Shown here: positions 983 to 53,996 of the stretch, one piece after another
Layout: every line of letters starts with the position of its first letter
Numbering within the stretch: the stretch's first letter is position 1
NCBI RefSeq assembly: GCF_000186345.1
Contig: NC_014962.1
Location: 3,748,450-3,812,449 of the forward strand
Length of the DNA stretch: 64,000 nucleotides
From: Isosphaera pallida ATCC 43644
GTDB taxonomy: Bacteria; Planctomycetota; Planctomycetia; Isosphaerales; Isosphaeraceae
Reading direction: 5' to 3'
The notes under the pieces: model-generated
The model's database searches: none
What the model was told of the DNA's origin: nothing
Seen by the model: the letters and a program-made list of their open reading frames with translations, nothing else
Made by a program: the position numbers and the translations under genes

Positions 983-1027
983 ACCGAGTGGACATCTCGC
1001 CTCACTTCGTTCCCGTGGAGCGCCTGG

Positions 1028-1963
1028 TTGATCATGGCATCTTGGATTGAACGCCTCAAAGCCGGTCTTGCCAAAACGGCCAAGTTGCTGGACGTGCGGT
1101 CCTGGCTGGGTCGCACCGTTGATCAGAGCTTTCTGGAGCGTTTGGAGGCGCAGCTGCTCCAGGCTGACGTAGGAGTCAAAGCCACCGAGCGGCTTCTCCA
1201 GAAAGTCAAGGAGGGGTTCGAGGGCAAGACCGCCGACGAGGACTTGTTGGCGTTCGTCAAGGCGGAACTGATCAATCTCTTGACCCCCGCCGGCGGCGCG
1301 CCCGAGGCGATTCGGTATGCTCCCACCCCCCCCACCACCCTGCTGATCGCCGGGGTCAACGGCTCGGGCAAGACCACCTCCGTGGCCAAGCTGACCCACC
1401 GCATCCGAAGCGAAGGCAAGTCGCTGGTGCTGGCCGCTTGTGACACCTTCCGCGCCGCGGCGGCCGATCAGCTGGCAGTCTGGGCCCAACGGACCGGAGC
1501 CGATCTGGTGCGTGGTCAGACCGGGGCCGATCCGGCCAGCGTCGCTCATGACGCCTGCGATCGAGCCCTGGCCCGTAAGGCTGACGTGCTGATGGTCGAT
1601 ACTGCCGGGCGTCTTCACACTCAAACCCACCTGATGCGGGAGCTTGAAAAAATCCGCAACGTCCTCCAGCGCAAGATTCCCAACGCCCCGCACGAGGTCT
1701 TTCTGGTACTGGATGGCACCGCGGGCCAGAACGCCATTCGCCAAGCGGAGATGTTCTCCAAGTCGATCGGTTGCACCGGGATCATCCTGACCAAACTGGA
1801 CGGCACCGCCAAGGGTGGCGTCGCGGTCGCCATTCGTCAAACCCTTGACCTACCCGTGCGGTTTATTGGCGTCGGCGAAGGCATCGATGACCTCCAACCA
1901 TTCCGCGCCGAGGAATTCGTCGCCTCGCTATTTGGCGAACGGCTCGCTGCCAGCCCCAACTAG
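1028..1963 (+). CDS. ftsY: Signal recognition particle receptor FtsY
   Basis: SRP-family GTPase that docks ribosome-SRP complexes at the membrane for co-translational insertion. The NG domain is complete: G1 GVNGSGKTTSVAKL, the DTFRAAAADQL motif, G3 DTAGRLHTQ, and TKLDGTAKGG with the closing glycines. At about 310 residues it is a short form without the long acidic A domain found in Enterobacteria. FtsY is preferred over Ffh because no M domain follows the G domain. The start is either TTG 1028 (GGAG at 1017-1020, spacing 7) or ATG 1034 (spacing 13). It works in the same pathway as the YidC insertase at 25262. Confidence 0.95.
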   Translation: MIMASWIERLKAGLAKTAKLLDVRSWLGRTVDQSFLERLEAQLLQADVGVKATERLLQKVKEGFEGKTADEDLLAFVKAELINLLTPAGGAPEAIRYAPTPPTTLLIAGVNGSGKTTSVAKLTHRIRSEGKSLVLAACDTFRAAAADQLAVWAQRTGADLVRGQTGADPASVAHDACDRALARKADVLMVDTAGRLHTQTHLMRELEKIRNVLQRKIPNAPHEVFLVLDGTAGQNAIRQAEMFSKSIGCTGIILTKLDGTAKGGVAVAIRQTLDLPVRFIGVGEGIDDLQPFRAEEFVASLFGERLAASPN

Positions 1964-2450
1964 CGCAAGCTATCCCAAGTCTCGACCCGCTCGCCCATAC
2001 GATTCGAGGTCCCGTAAGTGCGCGGCGCGTGGGTTCCCGATCCCGGCTTTTGGGGAGGTGAAACAGTCACCCTCTTGAGTTCAGCGACTTCATGCACGAC
2101 GATAAGAGTCATCCGGCCCGTCATTCCGCTTCGTGATGGCCTGAACGGATTGAGGGATTACCATACGCGCGCTCAGGATGATCGTCGATCGCCCTTTTGC
2201 CACTCGTCCCTTGACTCTTTGAATCAAACCGGCTTTTTCTGTCCCTCTCAAAGGATATGCCGTAGTTTTAGACGTTCCGTTTCCCTCGACCAATCCATTC
2301 CCCCGCCGCCCCCTCAATCCGATCCTGCTTGGGATCATCCGCGCGACGCAACCAGCGTCGCGCGGCGGGATGACGGAGGAAACTCCTTGAGTTTGAGTTG
2401 AGGTTGGGACAAGGTTTTCGATTCGGAGAGTTTTGGTTCGGAGCGTCTTC
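1964..2450. other. Intergenic region before the sigma-54-type regulator
   Basis: No convincing gene. Open frames here lack coding-like codon use and known motifs. The only clear structure is a strong hairpin at 2339-2365, described separately. Confidence 0.6.
2339..2365. promoter_or_regulatory. 11-bp perfect hairpin in leader of response regulator
   Basis: CCGCGCGACGC at 2339-2349 and its exact complement GCGTCGCGCGG at 2355-2365 flank a five-base loop (AACCA). No T-run follows. It lies about 85 bases before the ATG at 2451, so it could be the terminator of ftsY, an attenuator, or a protein-binding site. The symmetry is seen; its role is not. Confidence 0.5.
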
Positions 2451-3908
2451 ATGTCCGCCTCCGCGACCTCACCCGCCGTACTCATCGCTGACGACGACGA
2501 AGCCCTGCTAGAGGTGGTCTCCGGCTGGTTTCGGCGTTGGCGGTTCCGTCCCTCACTCGCCCGCAACCGGGCCGAAGTGATGGAACAGGTCGAGCGGGAG
2601 CGGCCCCAGGTGGTGTTGCTCGACGTCAAACTCGGGACCGACGACGGGGTGGAGATTTTGGGGGAGTTGCGCGCTAGGCTGCCCGATTTGGTGATCGTGT
2701 TGACCACGGCCTTCGGTACGATCGACCACGCGGTTCGAGCCATGCAGATGGGAGCGCGCGACTATCTAACCAAACCCATCGAGTCCGAACGTCTCAAAAC
2801 ACTGCTTCAGGAGGTGGTGGAGGAAATCGGTTCCCGAGCCGGAGTCGGAGGATTGGGAGGAACCGAGGCGTCGGCGGAGGCGATGGAGGGACGTTCCGCC
2901 AACGACCTGGAGCTGGCGGAAGCTCAAGCGGCTCAGGTGTTGCTCGGCGCGCATCCGATCATGGTGGACTTGAGGCGCACCATCGCGCGGGTAGCAGCCT
3001 CCGACGCCGAAGTGTTGATCATGGGGGAAAGCGGCACCGGCAAAGAACTGGTGGCCCGCCTCATCCATCAACTTAGTCCCCACCGCGAGGGCCCCTACAT
3101 CGCGGTCAACATGGCCGCGCTGCCGGCCCACCTGGCCGAAAGCCAGCTCTTCGGCTTCGTCAAAGGCTCCTTCACCGACGCCTACCGCGACCAAGTCGGC
3201 TACTGCGAGGCGGCCTCCAACGGCACGCTGTTCCTCGACGAAATCGGCGAAATGCCCCTGGAAATTCAGGCCAAACTGCTGCGCTTTCTCGAAGATCGCA
3301 CCATCCAACGCATCGGTGAGCGCACGAATCGCACGGTCTCGACCCGAGTGGTCTCGGCCACTCACCGCGACCTGGCCGAACTCGTGCGTGAAGGCAAGTT
3401 TCGTCAAGACTTGTATTATCGTCTCAACGTGGTGCCAATCACCGTGCCGTCGCTTCGACAACATCCCCAGGATATTCCCGACCTAGCCCGGGTGTTCCTG
3501 CGACGGCAACTCGAACGCAATCCCAATTCACCCGTCCGTGACTTCACCCCGGAAGCGCTTCGTTGCCTGACCGAGTACGACTGGCCGGGAAATGTGCGCG
3601 AGTTGGAACATGTGATCCACCGCTTGGTGATTTTGGGCCGCCGCGCCGCCATCAGCCGCGAGGAATTGCCACCGGAAATTCTGCGTCACGCTTCACCGTT
3701 GACGCCCTCAGGCGGAATGACCGCCTCGACCACCCCGACTACCTTCCCCGCGAGTACGACCATCCGGGAAGCAACCCGTCAGTTGCTCATCGAGACGCTG
3801 CGCGTCACCAACGGCAACGTCAACGAAGCCGCCCGCCGGTTGGGACGAAGCCGAGCCTGGGTTTATGATCAAGTCCGCAAATATGGAATCGACCTCGCCA
3901 ACCTCTGA
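2451..3908 (+). CDS. NtrC-family sigma-54-type response regulator
   Basis: A 485-residue regulator with three domains. The receiver (about 8-122) has the acidic DDD patch, phospho-acceptor D58, T85/T86 and K108. The AAA+ domain (about 165-400) has Walker A GESGTGKE at 192-199 and Walker B TLFLDEIGE at 259-267. A Fis-type helix-turn-helix ends the protein (NEAARRLGRSRAWVYDQ). The family uses ATP hydrolysis to open promoters bound by sigma-54 polymerase. The sigma-54-contacting loop, usually GAFTGA, reads GSFTDA (239-244), so the second glycine is replaced. The ATG at 2451 has GGAG seven bases upstream. No cognate histidine kinase is adjacent, so its signal is unknown. Confidence 0.92.
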   Translation: MSASATSPAVLIADDDEALLEVVSGWFRRWRFRPSLARNRAEVMEQVERERPQVVLLDVKLGTDDGVEILGELRARLPDLVIVLTTAFGTIDHAVRAMQMGARDYLTKPIESERLKTLLQEVVEEIGSRAGVGGLGGTEASAEAMEGRSANDLELAEAQAAQVLLGAHPIMVDLRRTIARVAASDAEVLIMGESGTGKELVARLIHQLSPHREGPYIAVNMAALPAHLAESQLFGFVKGSFTDAYRDQVGYCEAASNGTLFLDEIGEMPLEIQAKLLRFLEDRTIQRIGERTNRTVSTRVVSATHRDLAELVREGKFRQDLYYRLNVVPITVPSLRQHPQDIPDLARVFLRRQLERNPNSPVRDFTPEALRCLTEYDWPGNVRELEHVIHRLVILGRRAAISREELPPEILRHASPLTPSGGMTASTTPTTFPASTTIREATRQLLIETLRVTNGNVNEAARRLGRSRAWVYDQVRKYGIDLANL

Positions 3909-4340
3909 CCAACCCCCGCGATTCACCCTCGGCTTGGTCGGAGGATAGATCTGCGGACGCACGCGGCCTTGGCCAACGCAGAGTTCCCTAATTCCGCTTG
4001 CCAACCATTCGATCGAGTCGAACTCCAGATGGGGTTGGGAATCTGGGACTCGCTCCTCACCTCACATTACTCCTTCCTTTCCTGCTCATGGAACCAACCG
4101 CGTTGGGTTCGGGAGTCACCGGGAACTCAACTGTCGGGATTGGATCTGTCCACGGGACGCGAACGACCCGAGGGATGGTCGGCGCAGCTTGGGTTGGACT
4201 GACAAATCGCCCGGAATGGGAGCGTCCCGATCATCCCCGACCCCAGTGGGGTCGGGGGATCACGAGGAATGGGAAGAGAGCGAGTCGCTTCCGCAACAAC
4301 GATCCTTGATTGGAACGGCCCGTATGATCGTGAGACCAGC
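3909..4340. other. Intergenic region between convergent genes
   Basis: No supportable gene. It holds a strong hairpin at 4235-4257 (listed separately); the rest shows no recognisable feature. Confidence 0.55.
4235..4257. terminator. Perfect 10-bp hairpin, likely bidirectional terminator
   Basis: CCCCGACCCC at 4235-4244 pairs with GGGGTCGGGG at 4248-4257 around a three-base loop, between two genes that converge. There is no U-tract, so termination is inferred from position and stem strength. Confidence 0.5.
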
Positions 4341-5132
4341 CTAGTTGAACCGAGTGTCCTGAATCCGATCGCCCGCTTCGTGGCGGACGAAATGCCAGGA
4401 GAGTTCCTGGGCCACTTGCTTGAGGAACTTCGAGCGGAAGGCCATCGGGGTCACCCGCGAGTCGGCTGGCACGGGGCCGCGTTCAGGAAAAGTGGTGGCA
4501 ACGTGTTCGTCATAAATCACCCGGCTGATCTTGCCGTCGATCGCGTCCTCCTCCTCGCCCTTGGCCGGCGGGGCCAGTTCCGTGACTTGGAGATGAATGC
4601 GGGCGTTGCCGTGCAACATGCCAGGGCTGGAGGGGTCTTGATATTGGAACTGATCGATCTCGATAAGAATCACCGCGTCGGCTTTCAAGTCGCGGCCGAT
4701 CTGGGCCGGGTCGGTCCAGTCGGGGTGAGATTCCAGCCAAGTGTTGACCTTCGTGGTGGGAATCACCGTGATTCGCTTGCCCTGGTCACGCAGAAGCACG
4801 GAGAGTTCGCGGGCCAGGTCGCGGTCGATGGTGGGGGAGTCACCCAACGTAGAAAGCGAGGCGTGGGGCAGCACCACCACCGTCTTGCCCTTGAGGTCGG
4901 GTCCCAAGGGGTCGATCTTCGGATCGAACGGTTGCAGGAAGAACATCGCCATGCGGGGGTCGCACCCGGCCGCTCCGACCACGGCCCACATCAACGCGGC
5001 GAGGAGGATTGGCTGGCGACCCCAACCGGACGGAGCGTTTGGGACATGCGCCCGGTCGGACCGGGCCGCATTCATCGCCGCGGCCGCAGGTCTGGGCCAG
5101 GCGATGGCAAGCTGACGATAAGAGCCGAACAT
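4341..5132 (-). CDS. Predicted lipoprotein of unknown function
   Basis: A 263-residue protein with a hydrophobic segment (ILLAALMWAVVGAAGC) ending in a lipobox-like cysteine, so it is probably a lipoprotein. Its unusually long polar N-terminal lead suggests the used start could be internal. The mature part begins KGKTVVVLPHASL and continues with an alternating alpha/beta pattern including DAVILIEIDQFQ. This resembles small envelope lipoproteins that share an N-terminal Rossmann-like fold, but I cannot name the family. I chose ATG 5132 because GGAGGAGCGAGGAA precedes it. It begins 19 bases after the DUF2752 gene, so the two are probably co-transcribed. Confidence 0.65.
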   Translation of the reverse strand: MFGSYRQLAIAWPRPAAAAMNAARSDRAHVPNAPSGWGRQPILLAALMWAVVGAAGCDPRMAMFFLQPFDPKIDPLGPDLKGKTVVVLPHASLSTLGDSPTIDRDLARELSVLLRDQGKRITVIPTTKVNTWLESHPDWTDPAQIGRDLKADAVILIEIDQFQYQDPSSPGMLHGNARIHLQVTELAPPAKGEEEDAIDGKISRVIYDEHVATTFPERGPVPADSRVTPMAFRSKFLKQVAQELSWHFVRHEAGDRIQDTRFN

Positions 5133-5151
5133 CCTTGTTCCTCGCTCCTCC

Positions 5152-5574
5152 CTAGAAGGCCAACAACCGGGCGATCCAAACCAGGATCGTCCATGCGACC
5201 AGCCCCAGAACCAGCATAGGTAGGGTTGGGGCCAACGATCGGACCGGCCAGGAACGGCCAACCACCGCCAGGATCAGCATCCACAGGGCCACCGGCGCGG
5301 CCAGAACGGCCAGGGTGGCCCCCGCCGGATTGGCCGCCCAGGCTCGATCCGGTTCCAAACGAACCATCCAAGCGAAGGCAGTGGTCATTCCGCAGGTGGC
5401 GCAGGGACGTCCAAACAGCGTGCGAAACTGACAGGGAGCCAATCCCAACCGCTCGTGAGTGCCGAAGCCACGGGGGTCGGGTTCAAGCTGGGTGGCCACG
5501 GATAAACAGGCCAGCAAGCCAACTCCAACCAAACCCAAACACAGACGAACCGAACCGGTCAAACGCTCATACAC
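5152..5574 (-). CDS. DUF2752 family membrane protein
   Basis: A 140-residue integral membrane protein. The motif APCQFRTLFGRPCATCGMTTA, read in two halves (CQFRTLFGRPC and CATCGMTTA), is the cysteine-rich signature of DUF2752, flanked by about three hydrophobic helices. The function of the family is not established. GTG 5574 is chosen because GGAGG lies five bases upstream and gives the usual family length; the frame stays open to a TTG at 5703, but that start has no ribosome binding site. It is the first gene of a two-gene unit with the lipoprotein. Confidence 0.75.
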   Translation of the reverse strand: MYERLTGSVRLCLGLVGVGLLACLSVATQLEPDPRGFGTHERLGLAPCQFRTLFGRPCATCGMTTAFAWMVRLEPDRAWAANPAGATLAVLAAPVALWMLILAVVGRSWPVRSLAPTLPMLVLGLVAWTILVWIARLLAF

Positions 5575-6359
5575 CCAAGCCTCCAACCTCTCGGGGCGAC
5601 TTGAAGGAGCCGTGACCAAGTCCTCGACCTCGCCCCAACCGCACGGCCAGGCGTGAGGTTCGAAATCGTTCGTGCGCGTCACAACACCACTCACACAAGC
5701 CAAAGCGTCTTGTTCACAGGAGGTGCATGGTCACCATAGAGCGGTTTGATTCCGTTGGCAAGAGGAATTTCGCGACGAAGGAGGAACCCCATTGACCCCC
5801 ACGCGGTTCGCTTCCCGTCCGCATTAGCCAGGCATGCCGGAACGGCATTCCCCGCAGCTCGACCTGCCGGACAACGCCTCCGGATTCGATACGAAGCGAA
5901 CCTGAGTTGTTTGATTGATAGGATCATCCCTCCTCAACTCGCTTGCGAGGAGTCGGTGGAACGCACGGTTTTGCCGAGCCATCCGACACCGTCGGTCCGT
6001 TTCGGAGAAACCCTGGACGTTCCGCAACACAAGGATTCGACAAGACTGTTGCATCAAGCGACAACCCGCCCGACGCAACAGGTTCCCAGATCGGATCAAA
6101 CGACGCCCGACAATACCTGAACTTAAGGTTTTATAATTTTTCTAAATCATAAATATGATGGTTTTGTCGATCTAGACCACCTATCTCAATCCAATCTTCA
6201 CTTCCATCAACTTGAGCCCGGTGAGGCCGCCGGGTCGTGTGATTCGCTCGCGTCGGGGTTCCGTTGGGTTCAGCGATCGGTTAGGTTAGTGACACGTGAG
6301 TTGCCTACCAACGACCCTCGACGGGTTCGCGCTGCCCATGCCTTGATGGAATCGCGCTT
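5575..6359. other. Long intergenic region upstream of pfk
   Basis: About 780 bases without a supportable gene. A small hairpin ATGCCG-GAA-CGGCAT sits at 5834-5848. An unusually AT-rich patch around 6120-6170 carries a TATAAT box and a palindrome (listed separately). The rest shows no clear feature. Confidence 0.55.
6132..6159 (+). promoter_or_regulatory. Candidate -10 box with overlapping operator palindrome
   Basis: A perfect TATAAT at 6132-6137 lies in an AT-rich island, followed nine bases later by the inverted repeat ATCATA-AA-TATGAT (6146-6159). That position would overlap the transcription start, as repressor operators often do. No good -35 box is visible at normal spacing (only CCGACA at 6107). 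The pfk start codon is about 200 bases downstream. The regulator is unknown; the palindrome is loosely reminiscent of Fur-family boxes. Confidence 0.4.
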
Positions 6360-7727
6360 ATGAATCGCATTGGCATTTTGACCGCCGGCGGGGACACTCC
6401 GGCTCTCAACGCCACCATCTACGGCGCGGTGATCCGCGCCAACCAATTACGGGTCGAAGTCTTCGGCTTCATCAAAGGGTTCAACGGGCTGCTCAATCCC
6501 GAAGCGCCTCATGTTCATCTCAACCCCTTACTGATCCCGATCCCCGAACTTGACCCAGCGCGGGGGGGGACGATTCTCGGCGCGTCGCGGGATTACGTCG
6601 GCAGTGACGACCGCGAGATTGTCCTCCAAGCCGTGTCTCGGCTCAAGCGTCTTCAAATCGATGGACTCATTTGCGTTGGCGGCGATGGCACCCTCAACGG
6701 TATGATGAACCTAGCCGATCACATCCCTGTGGTGTTGGCTCCGAAAACGATCGACAACGATCTAGGTCTGAACTATCCCGACGAAGTCAACGAATGGGTT
6801 CGCTCCGACGAGAACGACCCCAAATCCTGCCGCAAGGAACCTGGACGCCCCTTTCGGCTGGAGGAGATGATCAACTACGTGACTCCCGGCTACGCCTCGG
6901 CGGTGTATGTCACCTCGCGGAGCGTCCAGCGGATTCGGACCACCGCCGAAAGCCATCGACGCATCGCTATCATCGAAGTCATGGGCCGCGACTCCGGCAT
7001 GATCGCGCTGGGGACCGCCTACGGACAACCCGACCTGATCATGGTCCCCGAGGTCCCGATCGACCCCGAGATCCTCGCGGAGAAGGTGATTCGACTCATC
7101 GAGATCCAAAAACACGCCTTGATGGTGGTATCTGAAGGAGTGCGGGACGCCTCTGGTCGGTTTTTGGGCGATGTCACGGCGGGCACCGATCCGGCGGGCA
7201 ACCTGATTTATCGAGGCGCGGCGGAAACGGTCAAGAACATGTTGGTGGACCAACTCTCCGACCACTACTTCATCGGCAAACGGCGTCACGAATCGGCCGA
7301 GGCGGCGATCTTCGTGCGGAAGGTCGGCCATGACCAGCGCGGCGGCCGCCCGATCCGCTTTGACCGTCTCCAGGCCGCCCTGCTGGGGGCCAAGGCGGTC
7401 GAGTTGCTGCTGGAGCGTCGCTACAGCGAGATCGCCACCCTCTCCTACCGCGACGGCGGGCTTGAGGTGGAAAGCGTTGAGAGCCACAAGCTCAGGGATC
7501 GCTACGGCGTCATTCACTACCGCCCAATGGCCCCTTCCTTCTACGACGCGGAGCGGATGCAACCCTCGGCCCAGGGGGTTGAATACCTCCGAACCATCTT
7601 CACCAACTCGGTCAGTCATGGCGACATTGAGGCCATTTTGCCGATGTTCTCCACCGGCAACTTGGTTCAACCGTACCACTCGGTCAATGTCGATGTTCAC
7701 AAACGCATCAGACGGCTCAAACCGTGA
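6360..7727 (+). CDS. 6-phosphofructokinase
   Basis: Phosphorylates fructose 6-phosphate in glycolysis. The 455-residue protein has GGDTPALN at the N terminus, GGTILGASR, GGDG at 107-110, PKTIDND at 128-134, and MGRDSG at 208-213. Glycine in GGDG points to ATP as phosphate donor, while lysine in PKTIDND is typical of PPi-dependent and of the plant/trypanosome ATP-type enzymes, so the ATP-dependent 'mixed' group is most likely. About 30 extra residues (NYPDEVNEW onward) separate TIDND from the TAESHRR motif, longer than in E. coli PfkA. The ATG at 6360 has only a weak ribosome binding site. It ends in convergence with the ThDP gene. Confidence 0.9.
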   Translation: MNRIGILTAGGDTPALNATIYGAVIRANQLRVEVFGFIKGFNGLLNPEAPHVHLNPLLIPIPELDPARGGTILGASRDYVGSDDREIVLQAVSRLKRLQIDGLICVGGDGTLNGMMNLADHIPVVLAPKTIDNDLGLNYPDEVNEWVRSDENDPKSCRKEPGRPFRLEEMINYVTPGYASAVYVTSRSVQRIRTTAESHRRIAIIEVMGRDSGMIALGTAYGQPDLIMVPEVPIDPEILAEKVIRLIEIQKHALMVVSEGVRDASGRFLGDVTAGTDPAGNLIYRGAAETVKNMLVDQLSDHYFIGKRRHESAEAAIFVRKVGHDQRGGRPIRFDRLQAALLGAKAVELLLERRYSEIATLSYRDGGLEVESVESHKLRDRYGVIHYRPMAPSFYDAERMQPSAQGVEYLRTIFTNSVSHGDIEAILPMFSTGNLVQPYHSVNVDVHKRIRRLKP

Positions 7728-7789
7728 CCAGTCTCGATGTTGGCGATCTTCCTTGGCTTTTGCGAAGAGACCAACCCGACCCCATCCGG

Positions 7790-7815
7790 CCCGACCCGTT
7801 TTGAGCTGGGTCGGG
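7790..7815. terminator. Perfect 8-bp hairpin between convergent genes
   Basis: CCCGACCC (7790-7797) pairs with GGGTCGGG (7808-7815) across a ten-base loop, between the 3' ends of pfk and the ThDP gene. There is no clear U-tract. Bidirectional termination is inferred. Confidence 0.5.
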
Positions 7816-7858
7816 TCAGGAAAGGTCGGCGTTTCGGAGCGAATCGAACCCAATCAGT

Positions 7859-9766
7859 TCAGTCGTTGACCTTGAAGGGCTTGACCGAGCGGACTGCCAC
7901 CCTGGTCCCCAAACGCAGCTTTTCGGGGGTGTCCAGCTTGTCCAGATAGGAGGTCCGCAGCGCCGAGAGCCAACGCAGTTCGCGCCCTTTGTAGCTGATG
8001 TGGACATGAATCAAGATGGGGCCAGGATAACTCAACCCGGAATGAAGTGAGCCGGGCACTTGGTCGTTGGTGCCGATGCGGATGTAGGCTAGCCCCATAG
8101 CGTGGGCGAAGGCCGCATAGTCGATTGGGGCGAGCTGGGTGGCGGTGGTGCGACGGTAAAGCGGTTGTTGGAGCATTTGCATGTAGTGATACGCACCATC
8201 GTCCAGCACCAGGAATTTGACCGGCAGCCCTTCGCGGGCGGCGGTGGAGGTTTCGAGGCCGGACATCAGGAAGCAGCCGTCGCCCGCCACCGAAATGACC
8301 CGGACCTCGGGGCGCACCGCTTGGGCAGCGATCGCCGCGGGAATGCTCCAGCCCATGCTTTGATTGTCCGAAGGGGCGAAATAGCGCCGGGGACCGGGCA
8401 CCCAAAGCGACTCGGCCGCCCAGTGGGTCGAGGCCGTCACATCGAGATAGATTAAATCCTCGGGATGAAGCTGTCGGCGAAGCTCGACGAACAGCCGCAT
8501 GGGATCGACCGCCTGGGTGATCTCGGTCGCCTCGTGACACGCGCGGTCCAACGCCCGGTCCTGGGCGATGCGGCGACGCAAGCCGGGGTCGTCCTCGCGG
8601 CGGATCGCCGCCGAATCGCTCAGCAGACGTTCGAGAAAACGCCCGGAGTCGGCGTGGACCGCCACGTCGGCGGCCACGTTGCGGCCCAGGTTGGCTGGTT
8701 CCGCGTCAACATGGATGACTCGGCGAATCGGGGGAATCGAATAATTCGCAGTGCTGACTTCCGAGTACTTCACGCCGATGGCCAGCACGGTGTCCACCTT
8801 GCGGAAGGCGTTCTCGGCGGTTCGGGTGCCAAAACGTCCATAGCCCCAGCCGACCGCCAAGGGGTGCCGATCGTCCAGGGCCCCTTTGCCACTGACCGAG
8901 GTGGCCACGGGAGCCTGGAGGGTCTCGGCGACTGCCCGGAGCAATTCAGGGTGGTCGTGGCACCCCATGCCTGCATAGATGCCCACTCGTCCCGAGCGGC
9001 TTGGGTCGGCGAGCAACCCTAGGGCGTGGCGATAGGCCGCCTCGTCGAGGGGCCGTGGCAACGGAGCGGGAAGCTCGCCCTGATAGCACCAGACGTCGCG
9101 ATACAAATCAAACGGGATGACCACCGCAACTGGCCCCGGTTCGCCAGCGCGTGCAACCTGGAACGCCTGATGGATCGCCAGAGGGATTCGTGAGACGTGC
9201 CGAACCTCCAGCACCAGTTTGCAAACCGGACGCAGCAACGCAGCCGTCGGCAGCGCGTGGACCTGAAAGGCCCGAGCGTTCGGACCGTGGGCAATGTCGG
9301 TGACCAAACCCACCAACGGCACGCTGTCCAAACGCGCCTCGCCGATGCCGGTCAGCGAGTTGGTCAAGCCCGGTCCCGGAATGACCGCGAAGACCCCCAC
9401 GCGACCTGTGGCCCGCGCCGCGCCGTCGGCCATGACGCTGGCGGAGAACTCATGGGTGCAAAGCAGATAAGGCAGCCGCTTGCTCTTCATGGCATCCCAC
9501 AAGTCGTTGTTCTGAGCGCCCGGGATGCCGAAGACGCATGGCGTCCCCTCCAGCATCAACGCTTCCACCGCGGCAGCCGCTCCAGTCATACGACCGCACA
9601 CGCCGACCCCGACCTGCGATCCGCTCGGCTCCGCCCGAAGCACCGCTGGGATCGGAGGAAGGTCAAAGGGGTACGACTGAGGATGCTGACCTTCGGTCCG
9701 GGTCGCGGCCAGTCCACCGACTGCGCCGATGACTCCCAATGCCGTCCGTCGCGTCACGTTTCGCAC
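7859..9766 (-). CDS. ThDP-dependent acetolactate-synthase-like enzyme with Tat signal
   Basis: A 635-residue member of the acetolactate synthase/benzoylformate decarboxylase superfamily. It has the N-terminal Pyr domain with catalytic glutamate E106 (CTHEFSASVMADGAAR), a central domain, and a C-terminal PP domain with the ThDP-Mg motif GDGCFLMSG (GDG 495-497) ending in LDDG (521-524). The order and length match the family, and nothing catalytic is missing. The unusual part is the N terminus, MRNVTRRTALG plus a hydrophobic stretch, which reads as a twin-arginine export signal. The GTG at 9766 has GGAG nine bases upstream. The substrate cannot be assigned, and no ilvN-type subunit is nearby. 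Confidence 0.85.
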   Translation of the reverse strand: MRNVTRRTALGVIGAVGGLAATRTEGQHPQSYPFDLPPIPAVLRAEPSGSQVGVGVCGRMTGAAAAVEALMLEGTPCVFGIPGAQNNDLWDAMKSKRLPYLLCTHEFSASVMADGAARATGRVGVFAVIPGPGLTNSLTGIGEARLDSVPLVGLVTDIAHGPNARAFQVHALPTAALLRPVCKLVLEVRHVSRIPLAIHQAFQVARAGEPGPVAVVIPFDLYRDVWCYQGELPAPLPRPLDEAAYRHALGLLADPSRSGRVGIYAGMGCHDHPELLRAVAETLQAPVATSVSGKGALDDRHPLAVGWGYGRFGTRTAENAFRKVDTVLAIGVKYSEVSTANYSIPPIRRVIHVDAEPANLGRNVAADVAVHADSGRFLERLLSDSAAIRREDDPGLRRRIAQDRALDRACHEATEITQAVDPMRLFVELRRQLHPEDLIYLDVTASTHWAAESLWVPGPRRYFAPSDNQSMGWSIPAAIAAQAVRPEVRVISVAGDGCFLMSGLETSTAAREGLPVKFLVLDDGAYHYMQMLQQPLYRRTTATQLAPIDYAAFAHAMGLAYIRIGTNDQVPGSLHSGLSYPGPILIHVHISYKGRELRWLSALRTSYLDKLDTPEKLRLGTRVAVRSVKPFKVND

Positions 9767-9970
9767 GAGTCCGATCTCCTTTGGTTTAAGGGTCGTCGCC
9801 GGTTGAATCGGATCGACCCGGCGAGATGATTCAGAACGGTTTTCTCTGAGCGATTGGGGTTCTCGGTGTAGTCGTCACAATTGGTAAACTCAGGGTAAGG
9901 GGAGTCGGGAGGTTTCACGCCCCGCCCGCGCTCGCAACCCTGCCGACGCCGAGAATCCCGCCGATTCGAT

Positions 9971-9999
9971 TTGGAGTCGGACCGTTTGAGTCCTACAAT
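9971..9999 (+). promoter_or_regulatory. Candidate promoter of the ABC exporter operon
   Basis: TTGGAG (9971-9976) and TACAAT (9994-9999) are separated by 17 bases and lie about 60 bases before the ATG at 10059. The -10 matches five of six consensus bases; the -35 is weak. Confidence 0.4.
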
Positions 10000-10058
10000 C
10001 GACCCGTGGGCGCTACAACGCCGCTCGCGGGAACCGTCACGGGAGGGAGTTCGTCGCC

Positions 10059-11126
10059 ATGCCGATCATCGAGGCGCGGAGGTTGACCAAAACCTACCGC
10101 GTGGCTCAGAAGCGGGAGGGGCTTCGGGGAGCATTGCGAGGGCTTTGGCGGCGGGAATACCGTGAGGTCCACGCGGTCGAAGAGGTCTCTTTCACGATCG
10201 AACCTGGCGAGATGGTGGCGTTCCTTGGACCTAATGGCGCGGGCAAAACCACCACCCTCAAAATGCTCTCCGGCCTGATCCATCCCACCTCGGGCGACGC
10301 CAGCGTGCTGGGGTATCGCCCCTGGTTGCGGGAGGACGGGTTCCGTCGCCGTATCTCGTTGGTGATGGGACAAAAAAACCAACTGTGGTGGGATCTGCCG
10401 GCCGCGGACAGCTTCGCGCTGCATCGCGAGATTTACGGCATTCCTCACAACCAGTACCGCCGAACCCTGGGCGAACTCGTCGAGCTGCTCGGGGTGGGTG
10501 GTCTGACCCGTCAGGCGGTGCGCGAGTTGTCGTTGGGCGAACGGATGAAGATGGAGTTGATTGCCGCCCTGCTTCACCAGCCCGACGTGCTGTTGCTGGA
10601 CGAACCGACGATCGGCCTGGATGTGGTGGCGCAGGTGGCCATTCAGCAATGTTTGCGCGATTACCACGCCCGCCGCAAGGTAACCGTGTTGTTGACCAGT
10701 CACTACATGCGCGACGTGGAGGCGCTTTGCCGGCGGGTTTTGGTCATCAATCATGGTCGGATTGTGGCCGACGACCCGTTGGAGCGAATCGTGGCCCGCT
10801 TTGACAATGAAAAGACAGTGCGATTGAGGTTCGCCGAAACTGCCCCGCCCAGAGATCATCTGGAGCGTCACGGTGACGTTCTCAAACGCGAGGGGCCCGA
10901 AGTGGAACTCAAGGTGGAACGCGACCGCGTCGCCGCGACCTTGGCCGATTTGCTCGATCGTTACGTCGTGCTGGACGTGGGGGTCACCGACCCTCCCTTA
11001 GAGGCGATCATCGCGCGGATGTTCCGCGAGAGCCGTCCCCGCACCCACGCCGACGACACGACCAACGCCGTTCAATCCCCGCCTAGTTCAGGAGCGCGCG
11101 ACCATGCCGCGGTCCAGCTCGCTTGA
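10059..11126 (+). CDS. ABC-2 exporter ATP-binding protein
   Basis: The 355-residue ATPase has Walker A GPNGAGKTT (57-65), Q-loop Q105, signature LSLGE (157-161) and Walker B LLLDEP (178-183). The LSLGERMK variant of the signature is typical of ATPases that serve ABC-2 type exporters. The last 100 residues form a separate regulatory tail. GGGAG lies ten bases before the ATG. It overlaps the first permease gene by 23 bases, and that permease overlaps the second, so the three genes form one translationally coupled operon. The transported substrate is unknown. Confidence 0.92.
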   Translation: MPIIEARRLTKTYRVAQKREGLRGALRGLWRREYREVHAVEEVSFTIEPGEMVAFLGPNGAGKTTTLKMLSGLIHPTSGDASVLGYRPWLREDGFRRRISLVMGQKNQLWWDLPAADSFALHREIYGIPHNQYRRTLGELVELLGVGGLTRQAVRELSLGERMKMELIAALLHQPDVLLLDEPTIGLDVVAQVAIQQCLRDYHARRKVTVLLTSHYMRDVEALCRRVLVINHGRIVADDPLERIVARFDNEKTVRLRFAETAPPRDHLERHGDVLKREGPEVELKVERDRVAATLADLLDRYVVLDVGVTDPPLEAIIARMFRESRPRTHADDTTNAVQSPPSSGARDHAAVQLA

Positions 11127-48158: not shown

Positions 48159-49376
48159 TCAGTTTAAGGACTCACCGAGAGCTTCTTTCACCAACCGTTT
48201 GAATTCCTGGTTGGTGGAGAGCTTTTGAAGCGATTCCTCGATGATTTTCTGCGCCGTTTGCTCAAACTGGTCTTGAAGCATTTTAGATAGCCGCTCTCGG
48301 GCGTCTTGGCGGCGTTGGAATTGCTCCAGCCCGGCGGTGTCAAGCTGGGATTTCAGGTCGTTAATCCTCCGATCCCTCTCGGAAATCTGCCGTTTGAAAT
48401 CAGTGAGATCAGCTCGCAAGCGTTGATTGTCTTCGTTTCTTTGGTCTAAAGATTCCTTAAGAGACGTTATCGTTTGACTGGCTTTAATAAGGTCACTCTG
48501 AAGCATTAAATATTTTCGGCTGAGATCGTCTATCAAGCGTTCTTTGTCGGTAGAATCTTGATAGAAGTAGAACGAAGCGTACAATAGGATGGCCATAGTA
48601 ATGATGATCGACACGTCTCGAATTATCCCAATCCCGGGAAAACGGTGATCGGATGCGGGTTGAGGAGGTGGTGGGGGACTGACCGAATGCAGCGGGTGCC
48701 AATCCTTGAGCGGTTCAGTAAGATCGTGGTAACGATGGGGGATTGTCTCCGACGTAACACTGAGATGTCTGAGATCGGTTCCGATCAGGAATGGCTGATC
48801 GCGCCAGGCGATTCCACACAGAAACATCAAGCGGCGTTGGTTCGTATCATGAGTGGAGTTGCTATCTTTGGGAAGATCAGTTTGGTTGGACGTCGATGTT
48901 GGTTCGAAGAGGAGCGCAAGTGGGTGGCTGGGGTTGAGTTGATGGGGAGGAACGGGTTTGGGCCAGGCGGAGGGCGAGGTGAGATAAAGGAGACGGTTGG
49001 CATCCAGGGCGGCGTCGCGGGCAGGATCAAGCCAGACGAGTTCAACCCTCATAAGATGAGGTCGGTCGTCGGCGTCGCGGCCCAGGTCGAGGATTCGGGC
49101 CATCAACCGTCCTTTGCCCTCACCCAGAGGTTGAGAGCCGAAAACCGGGGGCCAGACCGAGGCCGTCGAACCGCTTTGCCACTCCAACGCGCGGCAGAAC
49201 TGCTCGGCAATGTTCAAGGCCGAGGCGGGAAAATCGGAGGAATGACCCAACCAGCGATAGTCGCGTCGGACTCCGCCACTGGGCAGGGGTTGAGGCGGGC
49301 CCTCCTTGCCGAAGTAGGCGGAGGGCACGAGGATGGGCTTCGAGGTTGACGATGAGGTTTGAGGATCGTTCACCAT
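48159..49376 (-). CDS. Membrane-anchored coiled-coil protein of GTPase module
   Basis: A 405-residue protein. Residues about 1-250 form a novel soluble domain (YFGKEGPPQPLPSG, then RRDYRWLGHSSDFPASALNIAEQF, GRLMARILDLGRDADD and RRLMFLCGIAWRDQPFLIG). A transmembrane helix near 254-272 (DVSIIITMAILLYASFYFY) leads into a charged coiled coil of about 100 residues (SLKESLDQRNEDNQRL onward). It overlaps the GTPase gene stop by seven bases and has GGAG four bases before the ATG at 49376, so translation is coupled to the GTPase. It is the last gene of the operon. I do not recognise the family; its base composition is lower in GC than its neighbours. Confidence 0.75.
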   Translation of the reverse strand: MVNDPQTSSSTSKPILVPSAYFGKEGPPQPLPSGGVRRDYRWLGHSSDFPASALNIAEQFCRALEWQSGSTASVWPPVFGSQPLGEGKGRLMARILDLGRDADDRPHLMRVELVWLDPARDAALDANRLLYLTSPSAWPKPVPPHQLNPSHPLALLFEPTSTSNQTDLPKDSNSTHDTNQRRLMFLCGIAWRDQPFLIGTDLRHLSVTSETIPHRYHDLTEPLKDWHPLHSVSPPPPPQPASDHRFPGIGIIRDVSIIITMAILLYASFYFYQDSTDKERLIDDLSRKYLMLQSDLIKASQTITSLKESLDQRNEDNQRLRADLTDFKRQISERDRRINDLKSQLDTAGLEQFQRRQDARERLSKMLQDQFEQTAQKIIEESLQKLSTNQEFKRLVKEALGESLN

Positions 49377-51388
49377 TGGTCTCCCGGCGCGAGATACCAC
49401 TTGGCAATAGAATGATCGCGTTCCGTGAAATCATCAACACTCATCTTGATGAAAAGTCGGTTGTCCTTAACGGAATTTTGCCACTTCGCTTTGATGAGGA
49501 GGTTCGTTCGGCCAACAAGGTCGAGGATGGCCCAACCCGGAGTCCCTCGACCGATTCCTCCGATTGTGGAGGAGGATGGAAATGGTGAACCGTCGGTGGA
49601 CAGCCAAAAGTTGATCTTCTGACCAAACCGCCATTTGAGCTTGGCGATTCCCTGGGGTTGATCCCAGACTACGTTGGTGCTGGTTTGCCCTGAGTCGAGT
49701 CGGATCACCTCATCGCCGATTTGAAACACGATCCAGTGACGCTGGGCTTTGGTGAGCGTTCCGGTTTCCTGAATCGTGACCGTGTAGACTTGAGGCTCCG
49801 CACACTTCCGGGCAAGCGCCGCGGCCCGACGGAGATCGTCGCGCGTCTGCACGGACATGCTTTTTTCCCATCGGTCTACGTAGTCATCAATCAGCTTGGC
49901 TTTCTCAATGAGCTGGTAGGGCTCACTGACCCGACGGTTCCGAATCCGAGCGCGATCGACGGCGCGCTGGTCGTTGAGAACTTCGGTTTGAAAGCTCCGA
50001 ACTTCACTGAGATAGGTTCCTTGAGGATATGCCCGGAGATAGTTCTGCCATTCTTGGTTGAAGTCGTTCACGGCCGATTCCATCCTGTCGGTTCCCTTTT
50101 CCGCGGCAACGCGATCACGGGCGTTTTTCACTTGGTTGAAGAGGATGTCCTCACGCTTGCGTTTGGCCTCGATTTCCAAATCCCGAATCGGCACCTGGAG
50201 GACACCGCCGCTCAGGCCTTTCAATTCCTCGATTGCTTTGGCGGCAATCTCCACATCTTCGAGGCTGCGCGCTTGGCCGAGGGACTGACGAATGGTCCCA
50301 ATCTGGTCTTCGACAAGGGGTTTCTTTTGGTCATCGAGCGGCAAGCTCCTGACGAGGGGCTTGTTAAGGTCGATCAGCTTTTGTTTGGGGGACTTCTCTT
50401 TCGAGTTCAGAACGGATAGGATAAAAATTAGTACGACACATACGATCCCAATCCCAACCGCTAACACACCCACTAACGTCCACGTTCCCGTTTTTTTGAG
50501 ACGATAATAGATTGGATGGTTTTTTCTAAATTCGTATTCGTTGATCCAATCAAAGAGCGCTTCGTAGCCTTTGGGAGTGAGGTTGACGCTTGGTCGCAGT
50601 CGAATCGCTCCCTGTTCGTCTTGAATTGGTTCGACCTTCCCCACGGCCGACAGTGGGAAGACGGTGATTTGGCCCACGAACTCGCGGAGACGCTTGACGA
50701 CCGCGGCCTGATGTTTCTTGAGGAACTTGAGGGCGGTACGGGAATCGGTCGGTCTCTCGTCCTCATTGATGAGGTCCACCTTGGTGAGCACGACCGCGAC
50801 TTCGGGGACTTGTCCCGATTGATCGCGCAGACGGTTCAGCGCGTCGATTTGCGCTTTGAGCCGATCGAGTTTTTCTTGGCGATTCACCGGTCGTCCGAGT
50901 TGTCCTTTGTCGTCGGGTTCCCGGCCCATCACATCGGCGGTGGCGTCCAGCATGAGCAGGAGGATGTCGGCCTGTTTGATCGCCTCTTTGATCCGATGTT
51001 GTTCCTGGCCCTCCAGGGCCTCCAGACCAGCCATGAAGTCGTCGCCAGGATAATCAATCAAGGTGAGGCGGGTTGGCTGTTGGTTGTGGATAATTGTCAA
51101 ATTATATTCGATAGTTTGTATGGTGCCGGGCGGCCACTCGCCGTTTCGCAACGCTGCGGCGTGTTCCCGCAGCTTGATTTGGGAGGGACCGTGGGCGGTC
51201 ACGGAGAACCCGCTGGGGCGATCGGGTTCGGCGAGGATTTCCAGACCAGCCAGAAAGCAGGTCTTGCCCGCCGCGCGGGAACCCAACACCGTGACTCGGG
51301 TGGGACGCTTGCCACTCCCGCCAGCCGCTTGGGCTGGCGGGGTGAGAACGGCGACGTTTTTAGGGCGAACCGGATTAGCTGCGGACAT
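49370..51388 (-). CDS. Membrane-anchored GTPase with C-terminal beta-domain
   Basis: A 672-residue GTPase. Walker A GSRAAGKT (36-43), G3 DYPG (112-115), G4 TKVD (202-205), and a G5-like SAVG (247-250) make up a TRAFAC-type fold. A transmembrane helix follows at about 302-327 (WTLVGVLAVGIGIVCVVLIFIL). The rest holds an alpha-helical, charged segment of about 200 residues and a beta-rich end (VYTVTIQETGTLTKAQ, VRLDSGQTSTNVVW, WFLS-like and IKAKWQNS). This domain order is not one I can match to a named GTPase family. Its ATG at 51388 overlaps the membrane protein gene by 14 bases. Confidence 0.85.
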   Translation of the reverse strand: MSAANPVRPKNVAVLTPPAQAAGGSGKRPTRVTVLGSRAAGKTCFLAGLEILAEPDRPSGFSVTAHGPSQIKLREHAAALRNGEWPPGTIQTIEYNLTIIHNQQPTRLTLIDYPGDDFMAGLEALEGQEQHRIKEAIKQADILLLMLDATADVMGREPDDKGQLGRPVNRQEKLDRLKAQIDALNRLRDQSGQVPEVAVVLTKVDLINEDERPTDSRTALKFLKKHQAAVVKRLREFVGQITVFPLSAVGKVEPIQDEQGAIRLRPSVNLTPKGYEALFDWINEYEFRKNHPIYYRLKKTGTWTLVGVLAVGIGIVCVVLIFILSVLNSKEKSPKQKLIDLNKPLVRSLPLDDQKKPLVEDQIGTIRQSLGQARSLEDVEIAAKAIEELKGLSGGVLQVPIRDLEIEAKRKREDILFNQVKNARDRVAAEKGTDRMESAVNDFNQEWQNYLRAYPQGTYLSEVRSFQTEVLNDQRAVDRARIRNRRVSEPYQLIEKAKLIDDYVDRWEKSMSVQTRDDLRRAAALARKCAEPQVYTVTIQETGTLTKAQRHWIVFQIGDEVIRLDSGQTSTNVVWDQPQGIAKLKWRFGQKINFWLSTDGSPFPSSSTIGGIGRGTPGWAILDLVGRTNLLIKAKWQNSVKDNRLFIKMSVDDFTERDHSIAKWYLAPGDQW

Positions 51389-53489
51389 AGATCAGCCCTC
51401 GACGACGAGACCTTGACAGGATGAACCAGTAACAGAACACACAGAACACGATGAACACTGTTATGATCCACCAAACCGGGGCTAGAGGCGATTCGCTCAG
51501 AGCGTTGGCGACGCTATTGAATCCTTCGATGAGATCTCGTAAGTTGCGGTCAATCGTGTCGGCGATGGCCGCTAACTTGGGTTGGAGGATCTCCCAACCT
51601 CGACCCTGAAATTGGACCACCAGGGCCGAGGCCAACAAGCCCCGCGCAATCCATCGCTTGCTGGTGTTGGGCAGGCCGCGCCAGGTGGCTTGAGCGGTTT
51701 TCACGGCTTGACTGATCGACCGACCGCTCCAGACAATCGCCCGTTGACCGCTCCGCAGACCGACCAACACCACCGCTTTCGAGTCGGAGGCCAACTTGGA
51801 GGATCGAGCCAACATTGTCCGCAGTGACGATCGCCCACTTTGACGGCCCACCGCCTTGGCCGAGAGCCGGGTTCCCGCCGGGAGTGCCTTGGTGCTGGCT
51901 TTGACCGACTGAATCGCCGCCTGCCGAGCCGCTTTGGCCGAACCAACCGTCGCTTGCTTGAGCGATCCTTTGATCGCCGCCTTGCCGCCGGCGGTGACCA
52001 GGTTGGTCGTCCCGAAGCTGGCAAACAGCAATGGCACCTCGGCCACATCCAATGCCGCCCAACCCAACTCCGACGCATCGATCGGATAGCCGTTGACCCA
52101 GTTCTTCACGAGTGTGCCCGGCGCGCCGATGATGGGAAGACCCTCCCAGGCGTCGGCCTCTTTGGGGTGACCGTCGCGGTCGAACTCCTTGTCGAGGCGG
52201 CCGCGGTTTTCATGGAGCCAATCGAAACCTCTATCGCCGTGCTTGACGAGGAATGGGACAACGCGGGCCCCGACCTGGCGATCGTTGAGCAGAGCTTGCA
52301 ATTCCTCGTTGCGGGAGCTGTCAGCGTATTTGGCGAGAATGAAGATCGCCAGATGACCGAACCTGGCCACGGCCTCAGCGGCGGGTTTGACCGCGTTGGG
52401 ATAACCAGTGTAGATCAGAGCCACCGCCCCGTCGTCGGCATTCTTCTCAAGGATCGTGGTTGCCCACAAGGGAGCCTCCAACCAGAGTTTGACCGCCAGG
52501 GGTTCGCGGCGGGCCGCCTCCCAGATGGTCGGTTCGCCGTTTCTGAGCTTGGAGAGCCGGTCGGCCACCGCCTTCACCGAGATTCCTCCTTCCTTGATCC
52601 ATTCGGTCAGAAGAGGTTGGTTGAAATAAACCACGTCCAAGGTTTCTTCCAGGTTGAAACCGCGGTTGGTCACCAGTTCCTTGATGAGCGAGCCGTGTTC
52701 GACGAAGAGCAGGAAGCCGGGAGTCCCCAGTTCGAGCTTGTCTACCGCCTGACCCGTAAGCGGGGAGAAGTCGCGGGCGATTTCCAAGAGCTCGACGAGT
52801 CCCGCTGCGTGGGTTTCAGCGAAGGCCGATTCCGTCGGATCGTGGTCGTCATCGACCTTGACGATCGGCAGATCGGCCAGCACGGGGGCTAACCAGTCGC
52901 GCTCATTCACGTAGAACTTGCGCAACGCCTCATCCTCGGTTCCCAGCCAAATCATCACCGCCACGGGATCGTCTTTCACGACTTTCCAGGCCGCTTTGTC
53001 GTTCTCACGGATCGCCTGGACCTGGGCAAGGAACTCGTTGATCGAGTCCGGTTCGCCTAGTTCGGCCAAAGTCAGGCACAACGCGCCGTAAGAGGAGAGA
53101 AAGGCTTCACGCTCTTCGTCTTCGGGATTGTCAATCGTTTGGACCAGTTTGGCGAGATCGATGAACCATGATTGCTGGTTGTTAGCAGCACGCGCGGCGC
53201 GGGCGATTTCACGAAGGCTGGCCGGTCCCTCGTTGATGTTCTTCGACGCGAGCAACGCGGTGTTGAACGCTTCGGCGGTGGATTGCTCACGGAGCTTTTG
53301 TAAAGTTGCAGCGGTTTCGGGATCCTCAACCCGAATTGTGTGCAGCAGTCTGTCCACTTCGTACTTAGGTTCAGAACGAGGAGCCAATGGATTGCCCAGG
53401 GACAAGAAGGCGAATCCAACGACGACGCCTAGTATCAGCAGCCATTTGCAAGCCTGTTTCACAAGACTGAGCAGAGGATTGAAGAACAT
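51375..53489 (-). CDS. Large membrane protein of GTPase module
   Basis: A 704-residue protein with one helix at each end: N-terminal CKWLLILGVVVGFAFLSLG (about 14-32) and C-terminal WWIITVFIVFCVFCYWFIL (about 675-695). Between them is a long, mostly alpha-helical region with no family that I recognise, including ELVTNRGFNLEETLDVVYFNQP and LAIFILAKYADSSRNEELQALLNDRQVG. A Ser/Ala/Lys-rich basic stretch (STKALPAGTRLSAKAVGRQS) precedes the second helix. ATG 53489 has AGGAG ten bases upstream. It is the first gene of the three, and all three overlap. Confidence 0.75.
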   Translation of the reverse strand: MFFNPLLSLVKQACKWLLILGVVVGFAFLSLGNPLAPRSEPKYEVDRLLHTIRVEDPETAATLQKLREQSTAEAFNTALLASKNINEGPASLREIARAARAANNQQSWFIDLAKLVQTIDNPEDEEREAFLSSYGALCLTLAELGEPDSINEFLAQVQAIRENDKAAWKVVKDDPVAVMIWLGTEDEALRKFYVNERDWLAPVLADLPIVKVDDDHDPTESAFAETHAAGLVELLEIARDFSPLTGQAVDKLELGTPGFLLFVEHGSLIKELVTNRGFNLEETLDVVYFNQPLLTEWIKEGGISVKAVADRLSKLRNGEPTIWEAARREPLAVKLWLEAPLWATTILEKNADDGAVALIYTGYPNAVKPAAEAVARFGHLAIFILAKYADSSRNEELQALLNDRQVGARVVPFLVKHGDRGFDWLHENRGRLDKEFDRDGHPKEADAWEGLPIIGAPGTLVKNWVNGYPIDASELGWAALDVAEVPLLFASFGTTNLVTAGGKAAIKGSLKQATVGSAKAARQAAIQSVKASTKALPAGTRLSAKAVGRQSGRSSLRTMLARSSKLASDSKAVVLVGLRSGQRAIVWSGRSISQAVKTAQATWRGLPNTSKRWIARGLLASALVVQFQGRGWEILQPKLAAIADTIDRNLRDLIEGFNSVANALSESPLAPVWWIITVFIVFCVFCYWFILSRSRRRGLIYVRS

Positions 53490-53996
53490 GGCTGAAACGC
53501 TCCTGTAGACGAGATAGGTCACACAAATGAGGGACGTTCACGGCGGCATGGCCGTGACACCAACGGAAAGGCGACGACTCAGACCCTGACTATAGAATGC
53601 GTGCGGACGATGGACAAGCACGCGCCGGCGTTTGAAGGATGGCGTTGCAACGCGGTGTCCCCGGCCAGGAACGCATTCGGGCACGAACAAGAACCGCCAA
53701 GAGGTTGTTGGACCAAACACGCCGTTGGTTGGAGGAACAGTCCCTGGTGGGCGGTTCATCGACCAGCGGGTTGGTCGTCACCAGGAAGTTCGCCTCCGGT
53801 CCGGGAATCTTGAACGGGTCTCGAAAATCTGTTGTTCGATATTTTGGATCGTTGAGTCTTGTGGAGTGTGACGCTTGATGGGAGCTGAATCCAGCGGGTT
53901 TTCGTCTCGCTTTGAGGGTCCGCTTGGGGTAAAACCCCGGATGACGCCACGCTTCACGTGGTGGGACCGCGTGGGACCGACTTCCAAGGAGGTGGA
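53490..53996. other. Intergenic region upstream of the GTPase module
   Basis: About 500 bases without a supportable gene. A perfect 7-bp palindrome lies at 53538-53557 (listed separately). Confidence 0.5.
53538..53557 (-). promoter_or_regulatory. Palindrome upstream of the GTPase module
   Basis: TCACGGC (53538-53544) and GCCGTGA (53551-53557) are perfect inverted repeats with a six-base spacer, about 50 bases before the start of the first gene of the module. A dimeric regulator site or a leader hairpin are both possible. Confidence 0.4.

Follow-up and report, generated by a model that had tools for sequence, protein, structure and literature searches.

Systems built from DO-GTPases and GAP1 proteins have been predicted to act in conflict by way of membrane effectors (eLife 2020;9:e52696, PMC7159879). 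In the sections of that work relied on here, the DO-GTPases are marked by a glutamate that is conserved in Walker B, and two paralogous GTPases are present in 38% of the systems, so that a pair is not required; in the GAP1-N2 type a GAP1-N2-like protein is encoded downstream of the DO-GTPase, and outer domains occur beyond a C-terminal span (PMC7159879). A locus with a single GTPase that resembles these systems in part was analysed in a 64-kb stretch of the Isosphaera pallida ATCC 43644 genome (64,000 nucleotides of NC_014962.1, hereafter the window). Three overlapping open reading frames (ORFs) on the minus strand at 48159–53522 encode P1, P2 and P3. The GTPase of this module carries a membrane span. 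Unlike GAP1-N2-type systems, the module has a putative GAP1 protein reduced to an N-like part, a span and a coiled coil, without GAP1-M or GAP1-C; it also adds P1, which those sections of PMC7159879 do not mention for systems of the GAP1-N2 type. The module is read here, with a probability that we put slightly above even, as a trans-envelope version of the DO-GTPase/GAP1-N2 switch.

By sequence, P2 is assigned to the DO-GTPase2 family, matching the Pfam profile PF19993 at 38.9 bits against a cut-off of 27 (40 bits in a search of its own genome). It carries the motifs GSRAAGKT (Walker A), DYPG and TKVD, followed by a span and a beta-rich end, a layout which the initial annotation of the DNA had given and which sequence, hydropathy and an AlphaFold2 (AF2) model bear out; the statement in the same annotation that the module had no recognised family fails for the GTPase. 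In the AF2 model (mean predicted local distance difference test score (pLDDT) 80.3, predicted template modelling score (pTM) 0.45), the GTPase domain is followed by a span modelled with low confidence, a helical stalk and the beta-rich end, and in comparison with the PDB, Ras-like folds (Arf, Rab and others) and YcjX ranked together. DO-GTPase1 and/or DO-GTPase2 scored above cut-off in four of the seven other P2 proteins scanned (loci L073–L076), and those of L077, L084 and L085 fell below; DO-GTPase2 was also above its cut-off in L037. NCBIfam gave small_GTP for P2 (E 0.051, 13.4 bits), below its cut-off of 42.5, and the PHROGs match was phrog_19160 (E 0.0032), a family of unknown function.

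A diverged relative of the module was found in the window's own family, as a four-gene module in the order P1a-P1b-GTPase-partner. P1, the GTPase and the GAP1-N2-like partner are homologous and their order is shared; the relative differs in having P1 spread over two genes, a GTPase of ~780 aa and, at L041, a partner without the long coiled coil. L041 is the copy in the window's own genome (G000:C2:1291000-1304000, 3523–10471, or about 1.2945–1.3015 Mb of G000:C2). Across 20 loci with a four-gene-type GTPase, some of them stretches that stop at contig or fetch limits, P1b was recovered in 17, the partner in 12 and P1a in 10. A P1a profile recovered P1 of the window (2.9e-6) and of L037 (3.7e-7; Z set to 5000) and did not list that of L038. 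Conversely, the window-type P1 profile recovered the own-genome P1a at 3.4e-4 and frames of 585–802 aa in 25 of the 44 other family genomes (best 5e-15, each with partial coverage); a near-full-length match (3–704 of 708) was confined, among the 45 family genomes, to the window's own. The P1b profile gave no P1 match, and P1b is related to P1 by gene order only. Of the 44 other family genomes, 37 gave the four-gene GTPase or a relative when searched with P2; among 392 phylum genomes, P1a turned up in 2, each a member of this family. Besides the window module and L041, the window's genome carries (L065; G000:C2:2685000-2703000, 8255–10042) a canonical pair of a 325-aa DO-GTPase (PF19993) and a 234-aa GAP1-N2 protein (PF20013, 74.2 bits).

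It was mainly through the partner of this four-gene module that P3 could tentatively be placed. The partner passed the cut-off of PF20013 (GAP1-N2) in genomes G005 and G022; the G005 copy (L040) reached 25.1 bits against a cut-off of 24, with GAP1-M sub-threshold at 17 of 24 bits. For a canonical reference, the longest frame over the locus centre was taken at 25 loci and the 17 with a start motif were kept. Compared with these rows by hhalign, the own-family partner scored 55.5 (probability 93.9%), against 18.0 and 18.8 for unrelated P1b controls, in a comparison run without decoys. A nine-row profile of the P3 N-domain, from which the L077 frame at the P3 position was excluded, aligned with the own-family partner at 48.9 (probability 89.2%), where 60 column-shuffled decoys reached at most 13.7; directly against canonical GAP1-N2 it scored 30.0, with 60 decoys at or below 17.2. 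These profile comparisons suggest that the N-domain of P3 is related to GAP1-N2, mainly via the intermediate own-family partner. What had been annotated as a novel soluble domain resembles, by profile, the usual partner of DO-GTPase2. GAP1-M and GAP1-C found no match by Pfam in the window P3 or eight homologues, and all matches of P3 in NCBIfam, PHROGs and PADLOC were to coiled coils. The initial annotation had counted against itself a GTPase from a named family whose usual partners were absent; the family is indeed a named one, and a partner is present in reduced, sub-threshold form, without GAP1-M and GAP1-C.

P1, a membrane protein built of helical repeats, belongs to no named family and is laid out as an N-terminal span, an acidic all-helical region, the motif ELGWAA-D, a basic segment and a C-terminal span. 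Its homologues begin near ATG 53489, which was taken as the probable start. In 17 of 17 aligned rows the region ahead of ELGWAA-D is net acidic (only slightly so in L084) and the segment after it basic; the tail is basic in 16. ELGWAA-D itself is unchanged in all 17, an invariance owed in part to selection, since the loci were found by scanning for two patterns, one of them ELGWAA[LFM]D. AF2 models P1 as almost entirely helical (mean pLDDT 64.9, pTM 0.46), with ten-residue blocks at pLDDT 81–93 across most of residues 151–200, 231–320 and 351–430. Several candidate relatives were rejected: DUF4381 (21 bits, cut-off 27) covered only the C-terminal span and was taken as chance, and the same verdict of rejection was reached for Foldseek rows to TALE and designed-repeat proteins (best E 0.011), for structure matches of low Z (at best 5.8, at a root-mean-square deviation (rmsd) of 22.9) and for sequence matches to the PDB (E 0.048 at best). 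NCBIfam gave nothing, and PHROGs gave phrog_31459 (E 0.18), of unknown function.

The order P1-P2-P3 recurs among distantly related bacteria, a conservation that in the view of the initial annotation would support a functional module. A one-sequence search of 392 phylum genomes and a motif-pattern scan of contigs (17 loci) were used to look for P1. Before counting, the P1 match in G419 (E 3.3e-4) and a P3 match in G388 were dropped for internal stops, the scan loci L083 and L087, which repeat the G287 and G313 stretches L038 and L037, were counted once, and the partial locus in G428 (L039, N-half only) was left out. This gave 18 distinct P1 loci including the window, from records labelled Planctomycetota, Deltaproteobacteria, Synergistales, Hydrogenedentota and Kiritimatiellae, with bin errors possible. 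P2 lies directly downstream of P1 in 11 of the 18 (the window, L037, L038, L073–L078, L084 and L085); the P2 of L078 is cut by the contig end, and at L038, with 370 bases left, the start of the P-loop was read by eye before the frame breaks. A P3 homologue follows P2 in 8 of 9, the exception being an unmatched 305-aa frame at L077; these P2 and P3 matches were made with profiles iterated on the same loci. At L079, L086 and L089 the sequence ends ≤185 bases past P1, too soon to show a P2. Pairs of P2 and P3 also occur away from P1, at L120 and L121 and, at a contig end, L070. A search within the class of G313 matched 1 of 29 genomes, G313 itself.

At L088 (587–3766), in a Kiritimatiellae metagenome-assembled genome (MAG), P1 is fused to the C-terminal half of P2 and the GTPase domain is absent, an arrangement consistent with P1 and the outer half of P2 acting together. 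The same genome holds, at L123 (442–2184), a 580-aa GTPase-like frame that by eye resembles YcjX. The partial locus L039 (G428:C1:5406000-5421000, 40–8173) encodes a 360-aa relative of the P1 N-half upstream of an 807-aa frame, followed by a 605-aa multi-span frame and a 532-aa frame with a span and a coiled coil; on its opposite strand are two frames named by eye, one GTPase-like and the other ATPase-like with leucine-rich repeats.

Hydropathy placed one span in P2 (9 of 9 proteins), one in P3 (8 of 10 at the threshold used, not L074 or L077) and two in P1, the C-terminal in 11 of 11 and the N-terminal in 10 of 11 (L085 begins at the contig start), in agreement with the initial annotation. 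Flank charges made the C-terminal span of P1 C-in in 11 of 11 proteins and that of P3 N-in in 7 of 8. The basic segment of P1 has a weakly hydrophobic stretch on either side and may therefore either loop into the cytosol or bind the membrane from outside. We infer that the three proteins form one complex. P2 would be a cytosolic DO-GTPase2 on a one-span anchor, with its stalk and beta-rich domain outside the cytoplasm; P3 would have its shortened GAP1-N-like domain on the cytosolic side and, beyond its one span, an outer coiled coil; and P1 would be a helical, acidic solenoid on the outside, held in the membrane by both ends and carrying, ahead of its C-terminal span, a basic segment that is perhaps membrane-active. 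The GAP1-N-like domain of P3 may read or control the GTP state of P2, which would be coupled to the outer P1/P2/P3 assembly such that the GTPase and the outer parts exchange an envelope signal; P1 might then carry the output on the membrane. More tentatively, and at somewhat less than even probability, the module could represent a third subtype of the DO-GTPase systems, one that crosses the envelope: GAP1 would be pared down to a GAP1-N-like domain borne on a coiled coil with a membrane span, the solenoid P1 with its basic membrane segment would be the constant outer partner, and the GTP switch in the cytosol would drive or read the outer complex directly. DO-GTPase/GAP1 systems were sequence predictions, and a compact form of three genes whose partners stay constant, together with its near-core own-family relative, offers a small testable unit; P1 adds a helical-repeat membrane family to the DO-GTPase/GAP1 parts list.

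Several observations weigh against the switch reading. P3 is unmatched by the Pfam GAP1 families, its direct hhalign probability against canonical GAP1-N2 is only 34.6%, and the own-family partner profile misses the window P3 while matching that of L037 (5.9e-5); the partner itself is below the PF20013 cut-off in G010, G014, G017 and G041. The residue after DYxG, which we ourselves equate with the DO-GTPase Walker B glutamate, is Glu in 7 of 9 aligned P2 rows, with Asp in the window and Lys in L084. Flank charges are N-in for only 5 of 9 P2 proteins, with four ties including the window, and for 6 of 10 N-terminal spans of P1, with two ties and two opposed (the window and L088). Three of the 18 loci (L080, L081 and L082) have P1 without an adjoining P2, L080 with 449 bases left; the genomes of L080 and L082 hold a full P2 elsewhere with P3 adjoining it, and that of L081 a weak partial P2 match only. 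No P2 match was found in the genomes of L079, L086 and L089, which are MAGs and maybe incomplete; the whole-genome P2 checks as a group used MAGs or drafts of uncertain completeness. The fusion at L088 lacks an adjoining P3, the next frame (258 aa) giving no P3 match.

The explanation that survives best beside the trans-envelope switch is an envelope-stress or scaffold device like YcjX and the PSP-linked GTPases, preserving the membrane rather than acting against an invader, which we consider rather unlikely. The P2 model has YcjX among its best matches in the PDB (6nz6_A, Z 14.8, rmsd 4.0), and the 242 residues aligned with YcjX are the longest alignment among the 50 matches listed; other Ras-like folds, however, score within 1 Z of YcjX, and the match of the P2 profile to YcjX in the PDB is weak (E 0.14–0.15). 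The GTPase fold and this long structural alignment are shared with P2, a relation by fold only, whereas span, outer domains and partner genes differ. DO-GTPase genes accompany some psp operons in the part of PMC11237479 used here, and the relative in the window's own family is widespread.

An anti-phage or conflict role, in which an invader would be sensed by the outer parts or the GAP1-like domain, with the GTPase setting the threshold and the basic P1 segment making the membrane permeable, is judged unlikely. It would accord with the proposal made for DO-GTPase/GAP1 systems (PMC7159879), with the uniformly basic P1 segment, with the low GC of the module and with the patchiness of P1, which the one-sequence search found, among 391 other phylum genomes, in G287, G313, partly in G428 and weakly in G419. 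Near-core presence of the own-family relative is unlike a fast-varying weapon, however, the parts are constant across loci picked by P1, and PADLOC profiles matched neither P1 nor P2 and gave coiled-coil matches only for P3. A trafficking or secretion machine of Arf/Rab-like GTPase, solenoid and coiled-coil tether is very improbable: Arf, Rab and other Ras-like folds head the P2 structure list and P1 is all-helical, but such likeness is common to many GTPases, the P1 model found no convincing PDB match, and spans and charges would place solenoid and coiled coil across the membrane from the GTPase. The GTPase with membrane partners proposed by the initial annotation is supported, together with a conserved gene order; its role would more probably lie in the envelope or in conflict than in trafficking.

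ORF coordinates confirmed the annotated overlaps on the minus strand, 14 bases between P1 and P2 (51375–51388) and 7 between P2 and P3 (49370–49376, at the ATG of P3); because the genes overlap, their products are probably made together. GC content declines across the module (P1 0.592, P2 0.559, P3 0.544; 64-kb window 0.617). The region had been noted as GC-poor in part, and the 1-kb bin from 48001 is the lowest in the window at 0.511 (bin mean 0.617, sd 0.031). In the coiled-coil part of P3 (48159–48600) GC is 0.462 and GC at third codon positions (GC3) 0.313, against a GC3 of 0.60–0.71 for the three whole genes.

Features of the P1-P2-P3 module, in window positions
Feature	Position	Strand	Basis
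P1, 704 aa; ORF open from GTG 53522, probable ATG 53489	51375-53489	-	ORF, alignment, AF2
P1 acidic helical-repeat region, residues ~35-470, presumed extracytoplasmic	52080-53387	-	AF2, charge
P1 motif ELGWAA-D, residues 474-481	52047-52070	-	alignment
P1 basic segment, residues ~500-605, net +19	51675-51992	-	charge
P1 C-terminal span, residues 672-690, then basic tail	51420-51476	-	hydropathy, charge
P2, 672 aa, membrane-anchored DO-GTPase2 (by sequence)	49370-51388	-	ORF, Pfam, AF2
P2 GTPase domain, residues 28-283	50540-51307	-	PF19993, AF2, PDB comparison
P2 transmembrane span, residues 305-323	50420-50476	-	hydropathy; AF2 pLDDT <50 at 300-320
P2 helical stalk, residues ~350-530	49799-50341	-	AF2
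P2 C-terminal beta-rich domain, residues 533-651	49436-49792	-	AF2
P3, putative GAP1-N2-like domain, span, coiled coil; ORF open from GTG 49400	48159-49376	-	ATG 49376
P3 stretch aligning with own-family GAP1-N2-like partner	48993-49268	-	hhalign
P3 transmembrane span	48576-48632	-	hydropathy
P3 coiled coil, GC-poor	48186-48548	-	sequence; weak coiled-coil family matches
Palindrome upstream of P1, putative operator	53538-53557	.	7-base arms, 6-base loop

None of Pfam's families matched the beta-rich end of P2. A C2 domain had been suspected there on the strength of the L041 sequence and a single Foldseek row (Munc13-1 C1C2BMUN, E 4.9e-4), and was rejected when Pfam found no C2 in eight C-terminal fragments. 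PF13525 (YfiO) was matched by the related GTPase of L041 (28.4 bits, cut-off 25) and not by P2 in the Pfam scan.

The palindrome reported about 50 bases upstream is present, ending 48 bases ahead of the P1 ATG; the end given for the region, 53557, is its edge and no start codon. Since 39 hairpins of the same design occur in the 64-kb window, the palindrome alone is a weak signal, and it is because the gene order was found again in other genomes that the module stands beyond chance.

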